Below are positions 13,522 to 54,718 of a stretch of 64,000 nt of DNA, in pieces (the first letter of the stretch is position 1; the number at the start of each line of letters is the position of its first letter). The notes beneath the pieces are model-generated. The model did not search any database and had not been told where the DNA came from. It worked only from the letters and a program-made list of their open reading frames with translations. The stretch is from NCBI RefSeq assembly GCF_032027425.1, contig NZ_JAVSJA010000001.1, positions 186,001 to 250,000 on the forward strand, written 5' to 3'. The translations under genes were made by a program, and so were the position numbers. Origin of the DNA: Microcystis wesenbergii NRERC-220. Lineage in GTDB: Bacteria > Cyanobacteriota > Cyanobacteriia > Cyanobacteriales > Microcystaceae.

Positions 13522-14109
13522 ATGTTAACCGCTACTGAAACCAAATATTATACTCCCGAAGAATATCTCGCCCTAGAGGAAACGTCCGAAGATAAAAATG
13601 AATATCGTCAAGGAGAAATTATCCCAATGGTAGGAGCCACCACTAATCACAATCAGATTTGTCTAAATTTTTGCCGTAATTTTCCCTTAAATATCAATAA
13701 TAAAGATTATTATACCTATATGGAAACGGTGCGTTTATGGCTGTCAGATTATAGTATTTACACCTATCCTGATGTGATGGTGATTCAAGGTCAACCTCTC
13801 TATCAAGGTAATAGTCAATCTAACGTGATCAATCCTTTAATTATTGTCGAAGTTCTCTCTAATTCCACCCAAGCTTATGATCGAGGGGATAAGTTTAAAT
13901 TCTATCGTTCCTTGCCAACTTTTCAGGAATATATTCTGATTGAACAATCTAGTTATAGTGTGGAACGTTACTCTAAACAAAAGGATGATCAATGGTTAAT
14001 TGATTTCGTCACGGGGGAAAATGCGGTTTTACAATTGGTGTCGGTAGATTGGCAGATTTCTTTTCAAGATTTATATCAAAGAGTAAATTTTTACCTAGCA
14101 GAAACCTAA
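13522..14109 (+). CDS. Uma2 family (DUF820) putative restriction-like nuclease, copy 1
   Basis: A 195-residue PD-(D/E)XK-fold protein of the Uma2/DUF820 family, hugely expanded in cyanobacteria. The opening YTPEEYLALEE, the PDVMVI segment (active-site Asp) and IIVEVLSNST (Glu of the E-x-K-like pair) are visible. The cellular function of Uma2 proteins is unresolved; a mobile or housekeeping nuclease role is only inferred from the fold. The AGGAAGGAGAG ribosome-binding site precedes ATG. It is 93-95% identical to copy 2, differing mainly around residues 51-65. Confidence 0.88.
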   Translation: MLTATETKYYTPEEYLALEETSEDKNEYRQGEIIPMVGATTNHNQICLNFCRNFPLNINNKDYYTYMETVRLWLSDYSIYTYPDVMVIQGQPLYQGNSQSNVINPLIIVEVLSNSTQAYDRGDKFKFYRSLPTFQEYILIEQSSYSVERYSKQKDDQWLIDFVTGENAVLQLVSVDWQISFQDLYQRVNFYLAET

Positions 14110-14411: not shown

Positions 14412-14999
14412 ATGTTAAGCGCTACCGAAACTAAATATTATACTCCCGAAGAATATCTCGCCCTAGAGGAAACGTCCGAAGATAAAAATGAATATCGTCA
14501 AGGAGAAATTATCCCAATGGTAGGAGCTACCACTAATCACAATCAGATTGCTGGAAACTTCTATCGAAGATTTCCTCTGACTATCAATAATCAAGATTAT
14601 TATACCTACATGGAAACGGTGCGTTTATGGCTGTCAGATTATAGCATTTACACCTATCCTGATGTGATGGTGATTCAAGGTCAACCTCTCTATCAAGGTA
14701 ATAGTCAATCTAACGTGATCAATCCTTTAATTATTGTCGAAGTTCTCTCTAATTCCACCCAAGCTTATGACCGAGGGGATAAGTTTAAATTCTATCGTTC
14801 CTTGCCAACTTTTCAGGAATATATTCTGATCGAACAATCTAGTTATAGTGTGGAACGTTACTCTAAACAAAAGGATGATCAATGGTTAATTGATTTCGTC
14901 ACGGGGGAAAATGCGGTTTTACAATTGCTGTCGGTAGATTGGCAGATTTCTTTTCAAGATTTATATCAAAGAGTAAATTTCGACCTAGCAGAAACCTAA
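14412..14999 (+). CDS. Uma2 family (DUF820) putative restriction-like nuclease, copy 2
   Basis: A second 195-residue Uma2 protein produced by the tandem duplication. All the motifs of copy 1 are kept (YTPEEYLALEE, PDVMVI, IIVEVLSNST), so both may be functional. The differences are clustered: AGNFYRRFPLTINNQ replaces CLNFCRNFPLNINNK, while the last 130 codons are almost unchanged. Such clustering suggests recombination with another family member rather than steady drift. The leader and ribosome-binding site are duplicated with it. Confidence 0.88.
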   Translation: MLSATETKYYTPEEYLALEETSEDKNEYRQGEIIPMVGATTNHNQIAGNFYRRFPLTINNQDYYTYMETVRLWLSDYSIYTYPDVMVIQGQPLYQGNSQSNVINPLIIVEVLSNSTQAYDRGDKFKFYRSLPTFQEYILIEQSSYSVERYSKQKDDQWLIDFVTGENAVLQLLSVDWQISFQDLYQRVNFDLAET

Positions 15000-25283: not shown

Positions 25284-26096
25284 TTACCAAGATAACCAAA
25301 CTCGCGGAATAATTGCCTCTCGATCGCTCATTTCTCGCCTTAAAATTTGCCAAACCTGCTGAAACCATTGTCGCACTTCACCGCTAGAATTACCCCGATA
25401 ACGACATAAAAGACCATCTCCTAAAGTGCTAGTAACTCCCATCTCTCCTTCTAGGGAAAAATCTCTCACTTTCTCAATTAAATTTCTGTCCACCGGTTGA
25501 CCGATATAAACTAAAGTACCGATCAGGGCGCTATCATTTAAACCAGAAAATCCCTCGATCATTTTACCACCTAACAGGCAGGATCGATCGAGCCATAAAG
25601 GTTGTCCAGATCGCCAAATTTCCCAATTAGAATGCCATTCTCCCGCTAAAAATTTCTCCCCTCGCGCACTGCGGCCAAAACGGGTAATTTCCCATCCCAG
25701 CCAACTGCTATTTTCCCCTAAATCCACTCGTAAATGTTGGCGAAATACCGCACCATTAAAGATAATTGTTTCTTGGGGTAGCCATTCTAAACCGGCATTG
25801 TCATCAATTTTAATCTCGATTAATTGCTGTGCCATCTGACCATTACTCTGGTAAACTTTTCCGGCAGAAGCAGTGGTAATCAGGGCATTAGTAGCGGCTT
25901 GGAGATGAATTTTTTGTTGCAGAACATCACCCCCAACTATTCCCCCCGCCGTGTGTAAAATCACCGTATGACAAAGATTTTTTCCCTCGGGATAAAAAGG
26001 TCTTTGTACTTTTAAAGGGGCGGTAGCATAGACGTGATTAATCTCGGTTGCGAGATTTTTTTGCGTGTAAATTAGTTCTAGGTTTCCCTGCCACAT
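25284..26096 (-). CDS. ureD: Urease accessory protein UreD
   Basis: A 270-residue protein of the UreD/UreH family, which acts with UreF and UreG to load nickel into apo-urease. The family block LHTAGGIVGGDVL lies near residue 50, and TASAGKVYQSNG and LEWLPQETIIFNGA follow. The ATG overlaps the upstream stop by one base (TAATG), suggesting translational coupling to the preceding 174-residue gene. No other ure genes are in the window, so urease genes must be scattered or elsewhere. Confidence 0.94.
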   Translation of the reverse strand: MWQGNLELIYTQKNLATEINHVYATAPLKVQRPFYPEGKNLCHTVILHTAGGIVGGDVLQQKIHLQAATNALITTASAGKVYQSNGQMAQQLIEIKIDDNAGLEWLPQETIIFNGAVFRQHLRVDLGENSSWLGWEITRFGRSARGEKFLAGEWHSNWEIWRSGQPLWLDRSCLLGGKMIEGFSGLNDSALIGTLVYIGQPVDRNLIEKVRDFSLEGEMGVTSTLGDGLLCRYRGNSSGEVRQWFQQVWQILRREMSDREAIIPRVWLSW

Positions 26097-26620
26097 TATT
26101 GATCCTCGGTCATGGTTTCTAGAAATTGCCGATAATTTTCAGGACTGAGATTAATTTTAACTTCTATTTGCTGTTCTTTATCCCTGAACAGTAAAATATA
26201 TTCACTTTCTGCTTTTTTGCCGACCAGGAGAGGATTTTTTAGCTCGAATTTTTGATAAACCAGATGGGGTTTCGTCACCCGAATAACTAAACTAGCTTGG
26301 GATTGGGGATAAATGTCTAATTGCTCCCGTTCCCGATCTAAAATTAATTGTTTAGGTGTCATGCTTCTTTCGTCAGCAAAAGTAGATTTATGCCAATAGA
26401 GGGTAATCCCCCGAATTTGGGGCAGTTGAATGATAAATTTTTCATCAAAACCTTGCTGCTCCCAATTAATATCTTCCAGAGAGCCAGGAGCGGGAATTAA
26501 ACGCTGTTGCCAGAAGACTTCCTTAAGATTTAAATCTTGCCACCATTGGCTAATAATTTGGAAATTCTCCAGATTATCGGGGTGGGGATTGGCACTTTGC
26601 CAGAGGAGAGGAGTAAGCAT
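26096..26620 (-). CDS. Conserved hypothetical protein coupled to ureD
   Basis: A 174-residue protein I cannot assign to a named family. It is rich in aromatic residues (LWQSANPHPDNLENFQIISQ near the start) with alternating beta-like strands and no membrane span. Its stop codon overlaps the ureD start, so it is co-translated with ureD. A role linked to urease maturation is possible but rests only on this coupling. Confidence 0.6.
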   Translation of the reverse strand: MLTPLLWQSANPHPDNLENFQIISQWWQDLNLKEVFWQQRLIPAPGSLEDINWEQQGFDEKFIIQLPQIRGITLYWHKSTFADERSMTPKQLILDREREQLDIYPQSQASLVIRVTKPHLVYQKFELKNPLLVGKKAESEYILLFRDKEQQIEVKINLSPENYRQFLETMTEDQ

Positions 26621-26852
26621 TTTGGGGGAATTTTTGCGCTGGGAAAATCAGGTTAATAGTCTTCGCTGGAGTTAAGGGATCATTAAGCTCAATCATCATC
26701 GATTCTTGAGCTGCTGATCGGGCCATAATATTAACTCTCGATCGCATTTTTATTTTATCCTAATTATCGAGGGAAAAACTGCTAAAAGTGGTCTTCATCG
26801 GCGATCGTCAGCCACCAGCCCAGAAAACTGAGGGAAGATCAGATAGATTGGA

Positions 26853-26858
26853 TATAAT
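26853..26858 (+). promoter_or_regulatory. Candidate -10 box for ATPase/TOPRIM cassette A
   Basis: TATAAT within GGATATAATTAACT lies about 48 bp upstream of the ATG at 26906. No strong -35 box is seen, so this is a weak call. Confidence 0.3.
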
Positions 26859-26905
26859 TAACTAATAAAGCCCTGTATGGTCCCAAAAACTAGAATTGTT
26901 TTAAT

Positions 26906-28120
26906 ATGAACCAGCCTAGACTATTATCTTTTACCCTCGATGGTTGGGGTGTGCTAGGTGGTCCAGTTTCCCTATCCCTAGTTAACCAAGTTGGGGTATT
27001 AGTGGGGAGAAACGGTGCGGGGAAATCCGCTATCCTAGAAGGATTTGAAGCCATCTCATCCTGTGCTATCGGTAGATCGATCGGCTCTTGGATGATTGAT
27101 AGTGATAGCATTCCCTCAATTTTGCAGGTTGAAATTCTAACACCGACTAACCGGCGCTTAGGATACAGGTATGAGCTAATCATCCCCTTTTCTATGGACG
27201 ATCTAGATACAGACATAGATGATACCACTAACGATAATTCCTTGGAAAATTCCTTTTCTTGGAATGATTCTTGTCAGTATATTGATGGAGATCAAGAACT
27301 TCTCTGGAAAACCGAATTTGGACTAACAAGCTTTAATAATAATGGTGAGCCAATATTTGCTATTCTTGGCAATACTACCTCGCTGCGACAGTCAAATATA
27401 CCTGGAAATTCATCGCTAAATTTACCTCCAGAAATGCAGTGGGTTTATGCTATTTTAAAAGGGATTCGTCTTCTTGGCAAAGCTCCTATCCGTCGCACAT
27501 CAAGACGACAGCCTTCCTTATTAAAGGTGGCAAGTAAGAAGATTTCTGCCAGTCGATTTGATCTAGCAGATACTCTAGCTCGGAGAATATTTCGTTGGGT
27601 GGGTACGGATGATTTTGATGAACTAGAAAATGTTTGTCAACGAATAAGACTTGCCAAGAAAATCACTGTGCAGAAGTTCGTTTTGAGTGAGCATTCTGGA
27701 CAGACAGGCCAAGATAAAGACGAAGAGTACATCGCTTCAGTATTATTAGATGGAGTCAATATTGGATTACTCTCCGATGGCACCTTGCGAGTTTTATCAA
27801 TTCTGATCGAAATAATTGCTCACCATCCTAATGCAACAACCATAATTGAGGAGCCAGAAACACAAATACATCCCGCAATGTTAGCAAAATTATTAAATGA
27901 AATTAAATCCTATACTTGGGCTGAACATTTAATTATATCAACTCATTCACCACAAGTAGTAGCTTGGACAAAGCCAGAAAATATTAGCTTAGTTTATCGT
28001 AACCAGGGACGGACAAGTGTTAGGAAACTAGAAGAAGGAGAGATTGAAAAAGTTGTCGAGTACCTCTGTGAAGAAGGAGATTTAGGAGACTGGATTTACA
28101 GTGGTATTCTCGATGAGTAG
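26906..28120 (+). CDS. AAA/SMC-like ATPase of a two-gene cassette (A)
   Basis: A 404-residue OLD/SMC-like ATPase. The N-terminal strands lead into Walker A GRNGAGKS at residues 34-41. The ABC-type signature appears as LLSDGTLRVLSIL, Walker B as IIEEPETQIHP with catalytic Glu about 315-316, and the switch His in ISTHS at 347. Between Walker A and the signature is a variable ~230-residue insertion with an acidic patch, where substrate-sensing elements of such ATPases usually lie. There is no TOPRIM domain in this chain; the next gene supplies one, overlapping by 8 bp. By family logic the pair resembles split OLD-like defence systems. The partner identity and target are unknown. Confidence 0.85.
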   Translation: MNQPRLLSFTLDGWGVLGGPVSLSLVNQVGVLVGRNGAGKSAILEGFEAISSCAIGRSIGSWMIDSDSIPSILQVEILTPTNRRLGYRYELIIPFSMDDLDTDIDDTTNDNSLENSFSWNDSCQYIDGDQELLWKTEFGLTSFNNNGEPIFAILGNTTSLRQSNIPGNSSLNLPPEMQWVYAILKGIRLLGKAPIRRTSRRQPSLLKVASKKISASRFDLADTLARRIFRWVGTDDFDELENVCQRIRLAKKITVQKFVLSEHSGQTGQDKDEEYIASVLLDGVNIGLLSDGTLRVLSILIEIIAHHPNATTIIEEPETQIHPAMLAKLLNEIKSYTWAEHLIISTHSPQVVAWTKPENISLVYRNQGRTSVRKLEEGEIEKVVEYLCEEGDLGDWIYSGILDE

Positions 28121-28697
28121 TAACTTGATCGCCATAATTGCCGAAGATGAGACGGACTGCGATGTGTTTCGTCAAATTATCCATCGCGTGCTGGGGACAA
28201 ATACTAGGACAAAATCTTGGGCATCTAAATCCTCTAGTACATTAAAGAGAAAACTGTCAGCAAAACTTAAAGTGATGACAAGGGAAGGATGTGATGCTTT
28301 TATCATTGTTCATGATTTAGATCGTAATCCCAAGAATAACTCTCTTAACGATGAAAAACAATTGCGAGATCACTTAGAATTAAGCTGTTCTAATATTAAT
28401 GGTATCAGGAAATATATCTGCATCCCAATAGAAGAATTAGAGGCTTGGTTTTGGTCTGATCCAGAAGTTGTTAAATATGTGGGACGAGGCAAGGGAAAAG
28501 CTCACCCAAACCCTCACCTAATTATCAAACCGAAAGAAGAATTGATCAAATTGTCAATCGGTGAAAATAGAAAACCCCGTTATAGTACCAACATGAATCT
28601 TGAACTAGCCCAAAAGCTAAATTTAGAACTTTGTGCCACTTGTTGTCCTTCTTTTAAAGATCTTCTCGACTTTCTGCAATCTCTGTCAAGAGGATAG
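28113..28697 (+). CDS. TOPRIM-like (DUF4276/RloB-type) partner of cassette A ATPase
   Basis: A 194-residue protein from the ATG at 28113, which overlaps the ATPase stop as ATGAGTAG; an ATG four codons upstream is also possible. The TOPRIM pattern is visible: strand plus acidic motif IIAEDETD (Glu11/Glu13) near the N-terminus and IIVHDLDRN (Asp68, Asp70) in the middle. IPIEELEAWFWSD (about 105-117) matches the helix typical of DUF4276/RloB-type proteins. TOPRIM domains of OLD-type systems are metal-dependent nucleases. Nuclease activity here is inferred from fold and pairing. Confidence 0.75.
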   Translation: MSSNLIAIIAEDETDCDVFRQIIHRVLGTNTRTKSWASKSSSTLKRKLSAKLKVMTREGCDAFIIVHDLDRNPKNNSLNDEKQLRDHLELSCSNINGIRKYICIPIEELEAWFWSDPEVVKYVGRGKGKAHPNPHLIIKPKEELIKLSIGENRKPRYSTNMNLELAQKLNLELCATCCPSFKDLLDFLQSLSRG

Positions 28698-28903
28698 CAA
28701 ACCATTAACCTGTCCATCCCAGCCAAGGTATCTGCGATCGCTGCTAACTTGACACTATTCTAAACCCCAAAAAAGAGGGATTTTATGGTAAAATAGTCGT
28801 ACAAATGGGCATATTCTGCACATCAAAAGGGTAAAAACCCGACTTTTAGCGAATTTAATCACAAAAACGCTTTTTTTGCCTTGTTATTGGAGTTAACCCC
28901 CCT

Positions 28904-44017: not shown

Positions 44018-45418
44018 ATGCTCACTAAAGAAAGTATCCAGGAATTAAAAATAACTAATCCCGACTTTCTCGGCGAAATATTATCCCAAACGGAGGATAG
44101 TAAAAATCTGGTATTTATCTTAGAAAATCTCGGACAAATCCCCGATAATTTTAATCAAAATATCCTCATGAATCTCGCTCAACACTCCCAAGAGCAGATC
44201 AGATTTTTGGCAATTAAAAATCTGGCTAAACTAGCGGATATAAATTTACTTAATTTTTTCTTTGAGCTTGCGGTTAATGATCCAGAATCTTTAGTAAGAA
44301 GAGAAGCGGTATCGGCAATTGGTCGTCTGAGGAATGGGGAAACTATTCCCTTTTTACTCCAATTTTTAACCGACAAAGACCCGAAAATTATCTTACAGGC
44401 AATTCGAGGTTTATTGGTTTTTAAAAACAATGATATAGTCAAACAATCTCTAATTAAATTAGCAGATCATCCCAATGAAATTATTCAATCAGTTATCAGA
44501 AAAGCTTTCACCAATAAAAAATCTTCTCCCGATCAACTACCCCATCCCTTATCCCCAGAATTTATGAAAAATGTCGTGGTTAATAGCGATGTGCGAGAAG
44601 TATTTCCCTATATTCCTGATCAATCTATTCATCTAACTTTTACTTCCCCCCCCTACTACAACGCTCGCGACTACTCCATTTATACCAGTTATCAAGCTTA
44701 CCTAGATTTTCTCTGTCAAGTCTTCCAAGAAACCCATCGAATTACTAAAGAAGGTCGCTTTTTAGTTGTCAATACTTCCCCGATTATTATCCCTCGTACC
44801 AGTCGCGCCCATGCTAGTAAACGGTATCCAATATCTTTTGATCTACACTATTATTTAGTTAATCATGGTTGGGAATTTATCGATGATATTATCTGGTTAA
44901 AGCCAGAAAGTAGTGTCAAAAACCGCAATGGAGGCTTTTTACAACAGCGTAAACCATTAGCTTATAAACCTAATGCTGTCACCGAATATTTAATAATTTA
45001 TCGGAAAGAAACCGATAAACTGCTTGATTGGAATATGAAACAATACGATCAAGATATTATAGAGGAAAGCAAGGTTTGTGGAGATTATGAAAGTTCTAAC
45101 GTTTGGCGAATTGATCCGACTTTTGATAAAATTCATACAGCAGTATTTCCTATAGAATTATGTAATCGGGTGATTAAATTCTATTCCTATAAAGGCGATT
45201 TAGTCTTCGATCCCTTTGGTGGTAGTGGCACTGTAGGAAGGGCCGCTAGAAATTTAGGTAGATATTTTTTCTTAACAGAACAGGAATCTACCTATGTGGA
45301 TAGAATGAAGATAGATTTGGGTCAGCCAATGCTTTTTGAACCCAAACTAACCAAATTTTTATCTTTAGCAGAATTCTCACAATTGAGTCAGGAACAAGAA
45401 GATGATAACAATCACTGA
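44018..45418 (+). CDS. HEAT-repeat and site-specific DNA methyltransferase fusion
   Basis: A 466-residue two-part protein. Residues ~10-165 are HEAT-like helical repeats (e.g. IRFLAIKNLAKLADINLLNFFFELA, SLVRREAVSAIGRL, DPKIILQAIRGLL). Residues ~180-440 are a beta-class amino methyltransferase: motif IV TSPPYYN starts at 209 and motif I-like DPFGGSGT is at 398-405. The SPPY form favours N4-cytosine methylation, though N6-adenine is possible. No restriction enzyme is adjacent, so it is an orphan. The HEAT domain may replace the normal target-recognition or oligomerisation part. Confidence 0.85.
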   Translation: MLTKESIQELKITNPDFLGEILSQTEDSKNLVFILENLGQIPDNFNQNILMNLAQHSQEQIRFLAIKNLAKLADINLLNFFFELAVNDPESLVRREAVSAIGRLRNGETIPFLLQFLTDKDPKIILQAIRGLLVFKNNDIVKQSLIKLADHPNEIIQSVIRKAFTNKKSSPDQLPHPLSPEFMKNVVVNSDVREVFPYIPDQSIHLTFTSPPYYNARDYSIYTSYQAYLDFLCQVFQETHRITKEGRFLVVNTSPIIIPRTSRAHASKRYPISFDLHYYLVNHGWEFIDDIIWLKPESSVKNRNGGFLQQRKPLAYKPNAVTEYLIIYRKETDKLLDWNMKQYDQDIIEESKVCGDYESSNVWRIDPTFDKIHTAVFPIELCNRVIKFYSYKGDLVFDPFGGSGTVGRAARNLGRYFFLTEQESTYVDRMKIDLGQPMLFEPKLTKFLSLAEFSQLSQEQEDDNNH

Positions 45419-52944: not shown

Positions 52945-53649
52945 TTAGACAGCAAATAGTTGTAAAAATTCTTTGAGTTCATTTAATACCTCATGCTCAA
53001 AGTTCCAAATGTCTTTTTTGGTTAAAGCATGGGATAAATTACAATATTTCTTAGCCGCTCTTTTTTCATTCTGTGATGGTGTATCTTCCCTGATATAGTT
53101 TTGAATCCACAATTTATCAATTTTTTTACGATTTATATCAATATTTTTTTGTGCAAGACAGGATCGCCAAGCTTCTACACAATCAGCATGGGGAGAATCT
53201 TGGGTTTTAATTTCTCTCAACACTGTCTCTAGTTCCCCCTGTTCATTAACATGAAGAAAATGACAACCTATTTGAGTATTCGTAGAAGCATTTAATTGAA
53301 ATAGCTTTTGGGTATCATCTATCCTGGCTGCTTCTCTAAAAACTCTTTGAATACATTGACTAACCACAGCAAGTCTTTCTTGTCTGGTTTGTTCGTCTAA
53401 ATCTAAAACAATACCTATCTTTTGAATATCATCTTTGAGCAGGGTGTTATTAAGTCGTTTCAGTCGTTGTTCAAGGCTACGATAATTTTCTCGTTCTATT
53501 CCGTCTAGAATATAAAATTCAACAATAGTTATCGTTAAATGATTCGATTCATTAATATGCTCAATAATAGCTCGTAAAAAAGCCGCATCATCTTGACTTT
53601 CAACAATTATTACATTAGCCACGATTCTACTCACCTCTGATTCGATCAT
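52945..53649 (-). CDS. DUF3226-type TOPRIM protein, partner of cassette B ATPase
   Basis: A 234-residue protein with a TOPRIM core: IIVESQDD (Glu17, Asp20/Asp21) at the N-terminus and IGIVLDLDEQ (Asp83, Asp85) in the middle, the pattern of the DUF3226 family. CHFLHVNEQGELETVL follows, and the C-terminal half is helical and Lys-rich. It overlaps the ATPase stop by 23 bp, so the two are co-translated. By analogy with OLD-type systems it would be a metal-dependent nuclease or effector. That function is inferred. Confidence 0.8.
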   Translation of the reverse strand: MIESEVSRIVANVIIVESQDDAAFLRAIIEHINESNHLTITIVEFYILDGIERENYRSLEQRLKRLNNTLLKDDIQKIGIVLDLDEQTRQERLAVVSQCIQRVFREAARIDDTQKLFQLNASTNTQIGCHFLHVNEQGELETVLREIKTQDSPHADCVEAWRSCLAQKNIDINRKKIDKLWIQNYIREDTPSQNEKRAAKKYCNLSHALTKKDIWNFEHEVLNELKEFLQLFAV

Positions 53650-54718
53650 TATGCTTGAGAGCGTAATCTAAGATATCTAATTCACTTTTAATACCGATAA
53701 TTTTATCAGTTCTGGGACTCCTTGCTAGTTCAAAATAGGCCCCCTGTTCTGGATAATATTCTAACCCCACATCGGCAAAAGCTTGGATCATCTCTAAACT
53801 ATGGGTTGTGGCAAAAATTTGGCTATCTAGTTCGATAGCTAATCGGAATAAAGTTTTCCAAAGGTCTCGGTAAGCAGTATAGTGAAGACCATTTTCTATT
53901 TCATCGACAAAAATAATTTTTTTAGGATTGAGTAGCAGAGTAATAATTATCTCTATCAGACGATTAATAGCTTCACCAAACAGAGATATGGGTAAGCGTT
54001 TTGTCTCTTTTCTTTTCAGATATAAATTTGGTTCGCCCAGAAAAAAACTTTCTATTTTTTTAATAGAAGGATCGAGAATTTGTAGAGCTTTTAGCACTTC
54101 TTCTTCCTGTTCATTAAAAACTATTTTGGTATAAGACTCGCTCAATTCTTCCAAAGATTTATTGACAGATGCGGCAATGATTACTGGTTGATCATCACCC
54201 GCATCAGGTAAAGCGAGTATTCCCTCAGAACTAGCAATTAAAAAATAGTTCAGTTGACTATCTTTTGAGTCATTCTCAGGGTCAAAACTTGTGTGAATAT
54301 TTAAGATAGAAATAACTGATTTATTTTTAGCGATAAAATCATATAATTTTTGCCAATCTTCAGAGATGCCTAGAACAGTATCTTTAAGAGAATCGGAAAT
54401 CGATATTTTTACCAATTTATCCCCTTGATTAGATTGGGAGCCTTTTAACTCAATAATATTTTCTCTATCAAGATTGAATAATAAATTATCCCAAGCATTT
54501 TTAGGAATAGCCCGAATAACTGCTAAAGATTCCTTGCGAATAATTCCTCTGATGTTATGAATAGTATTTGGATAGGGATAACTATACAAAAATATTGCCT
54601 CTAATAGGGCAGTTTTTCCTGAATTGTTTTTACCACCAATTAAATTAACTCGCTCAAAACCTTCAATTTTGGTATGCTCAAAACATCTAAAATTACTAAT
54701 TTCAATATCCTTAATCAT
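53627..54718 (-). CDS. AAA (OLD/SMC-like) ATPase of two-gene cassette B
   Basis: A 363-residue ATPase opening MIKDIEISNFRCFEHTKIEG, typical of RecF/OLD/AAA_15 proteins. Walker A is GGKNNSGKT (28-36), Walker B IIFVDEIENGLHY (catalytic Asp-Glu at 272-273), and the switch His is in ATTHS (306). It is unrelated in sequence to the ATPase of cassette A beyond these motifs. It lacks a TOPRIM domain, provided instead by the next gene. Codon use is AT-rich relative to psbV and ubiD on either side, as expected for an acquired defence-type module. Confidence 0.85.
   Translation of the reverse strand: MIKDIEISNFRCFEHTKIEGFERVNLIGGKNNSGKTALLEAIFLYSYPYPNTIHNIRGIIRKESLAVIRAIPKNAWDNLLFNLDRENIIELKGSQSNQGDKLVKISISDSLKDTVLGISEDWQKLYDFIAKNKSVISILNIHTSFDPENDSKDSQLNYFLIASSEGILALPDAGDDQPVIIAASVNKSLEELSESYTKIVFNEQEEEVLKALQILDPSIKKIESFFLGEPNLYLKRKETKRLPISLFGEAINRLIEIIITLLLNPKKIIFVDEIENGLHYTAYRDLWKTLFRLAIELDSQIFATTHSLEMIQAFADVGLEYYPEQGAYFELARSPRTDKIIGIKSELDILDYALKHNDRIRGE

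Follow-up and report, generated by a model that had tools for sequence, protein, structure and literature searches.

The presence of two overlapping genes, encoding an ATPase and a small partner protein, directly upstream of gyrA in Microcystis wesenbergii NRERC-220 raises the question of what such a pair does and whether it belongs to anti-phage defence. The locus was analysed computationally within its window, the whole 64,000-nucleotide stretch of DNA under study, together with related loci in other genomes. Combined, the results make it likely that these genes form a split-OLD module of two components that acts against phage, probably as a divergent representative of a defence type that has received little study. 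Coordinates are collected in Table 1.

Table 1. Features of the two-gene locus upstream of gyrA, in window coordinates.
Feature	Position	Strand	Description
ABC/OLD-type ATPase gene	26906..28120	+	404 aa; Pfam AAA_21, PADLOC HEC-01A
DUF4276 partner gene, probable TOPRIM-type nuclease	28113..28697	+	194 aa from ATG
Stop/start overlap of the ATPase and partner genes, ATGAGTAG	28113..28120	+	8 bp
Accessory insert, approximate limits	26796..28732	.	segment absent from 3/12 Microcystis genomes

An ORF check recovered both reading frames, and the overlap between them, exactly as the first-pass annotation had drawn them. The ATG of the partner sits inside ATGAGTAG, sharing its 8 bp with the stop of the ATPase gene, and an alternative in-frame GTG start at 28101 (28101-28697) would add four residues to the partner. 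The pair had also been described as lying between housekeeping genes, a statement that stands on the right, where the neighbour is gyrA by an NCBIfam equivalog match, but is weaker on the left, where, on the opposite strand, a 174-aa ORF (26096-26620, without an NCBIfam match) is followed by a protein presumed to be UreD, which NCBIfam left unnamed. An imperfect inverted repeat (23 nt, 78%) brackets the pair at 26638-26660 and 28701-28723, with its left arm outside the insert; the remaining repeats found around the pair by the terminal-repeat search were short, and a promoter and terminator scan at the pair returned results at chance level. Low G+C content was considered as a sign of transfer and dropped: the value of 39.6% lies below the 43.6% of the whole window, yet equally low values occurred in 97 of 623 segments of that size.

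The two genes form a conserved unit. Genome contigs were scanned with a five-sequence partner alignment (A1) and two short peptide patterns, a design that relatives without those peptides escape, and 24 loci were obtained (22 cyanobacterial, one from a Thermoleophilia MAG and one weak Deltaproteobacteria match), with one further locus from IMG/VR. Both genes were intact and overlapping in 23 of these 25 loci (22/24 on genome contigs and 1/1 viral), so that their adjacency is not due to chance. The exceptions were L095, which is cut short or broken where its contig ends, and L096, a weak and distant match in which an ATPase lies just upstream but blastp at 1e-8 recovered no partner. Measured from the start codon that aligns with the partner start in the window, the overlap was 8 bp in 21 of the 23 loci and 11 bp in the other two. 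Protein distances of the ATPase and the partner were correlated (r 0.81, 24 pairs), and still were over 17 pairs after removal of the Thermoleophilia locus (L094) and six close copies (r 0.66; 0/2000 permutations as high), a correlation that would also follow from shared descent. The four Microcystis copies had equal lengths and dN/dS values of 0.27-0.71. In L094, a partner 52% identical to that of the window stands beside an ATPase of only 28% identity, suggesting that partners may be exchanged between modules.

The spread of this subtype is patchy, with detection in 6 of 386 Cyanobacteriota sampled evenly across the phylum, the genome studied here included (E 1e-25). The partner had no match among plasmids or phages, and the ATPase had none among plasmids at 1e-20. 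DUF4276, the Pfam family of the partner, was found above its cut-off in 30 of 59 genomes of the same order, yet no paper containing the term was found by literature search. Within the genome studied here (G000), there were four ATPase matches and five DUF4276 matches, with every ATPase match adjoining a DUF4276 match: the window pair, C1:703569/703980, C1:2079725/2080108 (where the DUF4276 gene has one internal stop) and, on the minus strand, C1:779857/779205. The fifth DUF4276 match is a 244-aa protein.

The gyrA flank was compared across the 12 Microcystis genomes obtained by the search, the one studied here included, all of which contained the gyrA stretch and one of which (G059) belongs to the same species as the window. 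The slot holds the pair in four genomes (G000, G059, G001 and G006) and is empty in three (G003, G010 and G007), where the sequence passes from window base 26795 through about 20 bases to 28733. In four others (G009, G008, G005 and G004; loci L062, L064, L065 and L066) it is occupied by a type II restriction-modification (R-M) cassette, comprised of a restriction enzyme gene and a convergent C5 methyltransferase gene, over nearly the same interval as the pair (left edge 26787-26805, right edge 28759-28762). Protein families were scanned in the G008 copy, which encodes a type II restriction enzyme of 241 aa (PADLOC REase_II, 2.4e-114; no Pfam match) and a C5 DNA methyltransferase of 407 aa (5.7e-69); the other three inserts show 94-97% DNA identity. 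A 99-aa HTH regulator ORF was present in two of the four cassettes (G008 and G004) in a listing of ORFs of 90 aa or more. The twelfth genome (G002, locus L063) contains other sequence together with a cassette remnant: the match to the window ends at 26296 and resumes at 28762, and the insert holds a repeat-rich ORF, a 90-aa ORF that we take to be a transposase fragment and, by coordinate subtraction, about 140 bases of the right end of the R-M cassette.

Because the pair occurs in only 4 of the 12 genomes at this slot, it is not a fixed core locus, which was one of the points that the first-pass annotation had left to comparison with sister genomes. On a gyrA tree, the slot states were scattered, with mostly low support (26-96) that is too weak for counting swaps. 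Two of the copies, G006 and G059 (L068 and L069), carry different sequence just to the left of window positions 26759-26764, both near contig ends; these left sequences have the motif CAGCAAGCCCTAATTA in common and are perhaps short transposable ends.

The alternation of the pair with a restriction system at one slot is the most interesting part of these results, and a rare, tightly conserved subtype with identical flanks around the pair, an R-M cassette or nothing provides a clean test case. The available passages on PARIS, a split ATPase/TOPRIM system, describe detection of a phage anti-restriction protein and cutting of host tRNAs (PMC12839542, PMC12409363). A tentative proposal, possible but more doubtful than not, is that the slot is a defence exchange site at which whole modules that carry no integrase take each other's place at almost identical positions, and that the pair represents a split-OLD subtype of cyanobacteria, separate from PARIS and Gabija and with a trigger and a nucleic-acid target of its own.

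Neighbouring genes at other loci were judged by eye from their first 70 residues (up to 3.5 kb, 21 loci), and 17 hand-picked neighbour proteins (7 + 10) from nine loci were scanned with Pfam, giving a biased count with no background rate. A Planktothrix locus (L082) has an MmeI-type R-M gene, a Phd/YefM antitoxin and GmrSD nearby; a further locus, L091, has AbiEi (5.7e-104), AbiEii (1.7e-107) and a Gp49-like protein. PemK toxin genes occur at L076, together with a GNAT protein, and at L089, while PIN, ParE and DUF4365 proteins neighbour L077, L092 and L079, respectively, and an SNF2 helicase with DpdE/ZorD PADLOC matches neighbours L080. In the IMG/VR locus (L097), a terminase large subunit (3.8e-17) is encoded about 0.8 kb downstream, along with GIY-YIG and IS605-type proteins. 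Of the eight neighbours tested in PADLOC, five had no match, and several other loci lie among seemingly ordinary genes as judged by eye, which counts against the defence reading. Overall, the proposed defence-type setting gained support from those loci that have a phage terminase gene or genes of restriction, AbiE or toxin-antitoxin systems close by.

The toxin-antitoxin genes found near some homologues also fit a different reading, in which the pair would be a selfish module with the partner as a constitutive nuclease toxin and the ATPase as its antitoxin, retained by addiction and with no specific sensing of phage. The stop/start overlap of the two genes agrees with this, such overlaps being common to many toxin-antitoxin operons. 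The alternation of the slot with an R-M cassette speaks against it, although addiction is also possible with R-M systems. Some solved AriA chains were deposited under the label 'AriA antitoxin', but the system so labelled serves defence and responds to a phage protein that it detects, according to the part of PMC12839542 that was available, and the label therefore does not favour toxin-antitoxin function over defence. A selfish module of this type is considered unlikely.

Several other features in and near the window were recorded. A second split pair lies on the minus strand at 52945-54718, where an ATPase (AAA_15, 1.5e-22; PADLOC AbiLi, 2e-61, and PDC-M38A, 2.1e-53) overlaps a DUF3226 protein (1.4e-18; PDC-M38B, 7.6e-9); DUF3226 is also a weak match of the DUF4276 partner at 28113..28697. 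A protein combining HEAT repeats with an N6/N4 DNA methylase is encoded at 44018-45418 (PADLOC type II methyltransferase, 2.7e-79), and two adjacent Uma2 genes of equal length (PF05685, putative restriction endonuclease) are found at 13522-14109 and 14412-14999. About 4.4 kb past the right end of the window, an RloB gene (PF13707; G000:C1:254427-254981) was noted that, unlike the patchy pair, was matched in 11 of 11 Microcystis genomes searched, two of them with an internal stop.

The ATPase contains every motif that had been read from it earlier, namely GRNGAGKS (34-41), IIEEPETQ (313-320) and ISTHS (344-348), which are taken here to be the Walker A, Walker B and switch motifs, along with a signature-like LLSDGTLR (288-295). 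The Walker B acids would be E315 and E316 and the switch histidine H347, and the conserved C-terminus reads GDLGDWIYSGILDE. Columns G34, N36, G37, G39, K40, S41, D291, G292, E315 and E316 were invariant in 24 sequences, window included. The protein matches Pfam AAA_21 (2.3e-19) and also AAA_15, and Pfam found no TOPRIM domain in it, as the first-pass annotation had stated. When the family profile of the 24 sequences was compared with solved structures, matches to AriA (8.2e-9), PtuA (8.3e-8) and an OLD-family protein (5.7e-6) were obtained. By these profile matches, the ATPase is related to AriA, PtuA and OLD, and its ATP-binding motifs are intact.

The partner, in which EDETD (11-15), HDLD (67-70) and EELEAWF (107-113) were likewise all found, belongs to Pfam DUF4276 (2.9e-9 over residues 11-188, above the family cut-off), with a sub-threshold match to DUF3226 (0.0078) and no Pfam TOPRIM match. 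Acids E11, D68, D70, E108 and E110 were invariant in 24 sequences, window included and reaching down to 50% identity to the window protein, and remained so in 27 sequences after the addition of three rows including the distant L005 and L006. The conserved E plus DxD acids characteristic of the TOPRIM superfamily are therefore present in the partner as E11, D68 and D70.

Assignment to TOPRIM was examined by profile-profile comparison with scrambled controls, using as reference an alignment of 30 loci matching OLD-like_TOPRIM, of which 24 derive from ORFs of 312-369 aa and 6 from ORFs longer than 480 aa. A profile combining 52 DUF4276 sequences, headed by the window protein, matched this reference with Prob 92.6 and E 4.6e-7 and placed E11, D68 and D70 on the reference acids, and 0 of 40 controls (the reversed alignment and 39 column shuffles) reached that value, their Prob being at most 0.4. 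Against the two halves of the OLD-like alignment, the combined profile gave Prob 66.2 and 14.7. By subgroup, DUF4276b gave 24.5-90.7 and DUF4276a 0.4-3.7 against the OLD sets. The narrow subtype profile A5 failed against the reference (Prob 0.3), and neither A5 nor the single partner sequence found a credible solved structure. Additionally, three 244-aa Microcystis proteins (L100, L101 and L103) match OLD-like_TOPRIM above its cut-off and DUF4276 below its own, and by these matches appear to bridge the two families. The earlier description of the partner as TOPRIM-like thus holds for the broad DUF4276 profile with its controls but not for the narrow one, and a TOPRIM-type partner is probable for the broad profile only, short of proof.

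The failure of the narrow profile could also be read to mean that the partner acids are structural or that nuclease activity has been lost, in which case the ATPase would be the effector, for example through ATP depletion or DNA clamping. The invariance of all five acids in 24 sequences is as expected of an active site, and three of them align with OLD acids in the broader profile; an inactive partner is accordingly held to be quite improbable.

The reading as a split OLD-type defence module is favoured because the genes are kept together, their spread is patchy, an R-M cassette occupies the same slot, defence genes lie near some of the other loci, the ATPase motifs are present and the partner acids are invariant. 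In the mechanism proposed here, the ATPase would act as sensor and lock and the DUF4276 protein as nuclease. The two proteins would be co-translated and form a complex, in which an ATPase assembly may keep the partner inactive while sensing infection, either through a phage protein or through a disturbance of replication. On binding or hydrolysing ATP, the ATPase would then activate or release the partner, which may cut nucleic acid. The substrate could be DNA of the phage or the host, the mode of OLD and Gabija, or else host tRNA, the target of PARIS AriB, and phage would be stopped directly or by abortive infection. A non-defence OLD-type ATPase serving DNA repair or the cell cycle with an accessory nuclease, for which an archaeal OLD-class ATPase reported to serve progression of the cell cycle and, apparently, no antiviral role provides a precedent in the available portion of PMC12796447, is very improbable in view of the patchy spread (4/12 in the genus, 6/386 in the phylum), the R-M cassette at the same slot and the copy near a phage terminase.

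The pair was compared with known systems. In PARIS, too, an OLD-type ATPase and a TOPRIM nuclease are encoded by separate genes (PMC10568477, available passages), and the window ATPase matches the AriA profile (2.2e-20), in line with the match of its family profile to solved AriA. In the portions of PMC12839542 and PMC12409363 that were available, detection of Ocr by AriA activates AriB, which leads to the cutting of host tRNAs. However, the window partner has no AriB or DUF4435 match in Pfam, PADLOC or NCBIfam (2 Pfam and 16 PADLOC families were matched at E up to 1), and HEC-01 ranks above AriA for the ATPase, both of which agree with the earlier view that the pair does not clearly match PARIS. 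OLD class 1 and Gabija share with the pair a related ATPase (GajA profile, 1.3e-11; OLD structure, 5.7e-6) and, for OLD, the E and DxD acids that align in the broad profile, but the TOPRIM-like domain of the window is on its own gene and not fused to the 404-aa ATPase, and the next gene to the right is gyrA and not a GajB helicase.

With AbiL and RloA-RloB, the likeness lies in the ATPase (AbiLi profile, 1.7e-19) and in the DUF4276b subgroup, which aligns with RloB (Prob 68.4), whereas the window partner has no AbiLii or RloB match in Pfam or PADLOC and A5 gives Prob 1.1 against RloB. MADS is matched by the partner (PADLOC mad4, 2.7e-4) and the ATPase (NCBIfam MAD3, 1.9e-15), but far under the NCBI cut-offs (57 vs 420 bits for mad3 and 18.7 vs 160 bits for mad4); a literature search for MAD4 returned unrelated papers only.

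The top PADLOC match for both window proteins is HEC-01 (Hma-embedded candidate 01, an ATPase with a DUF4276-type partner), with the ATPase matching HEC-01A at 7.3e-23 (best stretch 288-382) and the partner matching PDLC04143 at 5.2e-10 over residues 8-191. Models of HEC-01 match all 27 ATPases and all 27 partners, those of the window among them, but the window pair is matched weakly in comparison with the best among the 27 (4.7e-203 for the ATPase and 4.5e-66 for the partner), and its identity to Microcystis pairs of the L005/L006 type is no more than 20% for the ATPase and 25-26% for the partner. Passages of PMC12111858 describe HEC candidates as genes found embedded between Hma genes; the nearest neighbours in the window, gyrA and the 174-aa ORF, are not known Hma genes, and such embedding is probably no requirement for membership in HEC-01. 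In the passages retrieved, which name HEC-04, HEC-05 and HEC-06, no statement on HEC-01 itself was found, and a literature search for HEC-01 together with PADLOC returned no paper. Activity is reported for several HECs, including HEC-06, in the available text of PMC10855318 and PMC12988326, and HEC-04, a fusion of ATPase and TOPRIM with IbfA as a homologue, is said to protect against coliphages T4 and T5 and not against T7 or lambda (PMC12111858, in part). The first-pass suggestion of a distinct subtype is thus retained in that the pair is divergent and not PARIS, but tempered by precedent, both in HEC-01 and in the three further ATPase/DUF4276 sites of the same genome. From these profile comparisons, the pair appears as a divergent subtype within a kind of candidate system already described, with HEC-01 as its best, if weak, match.
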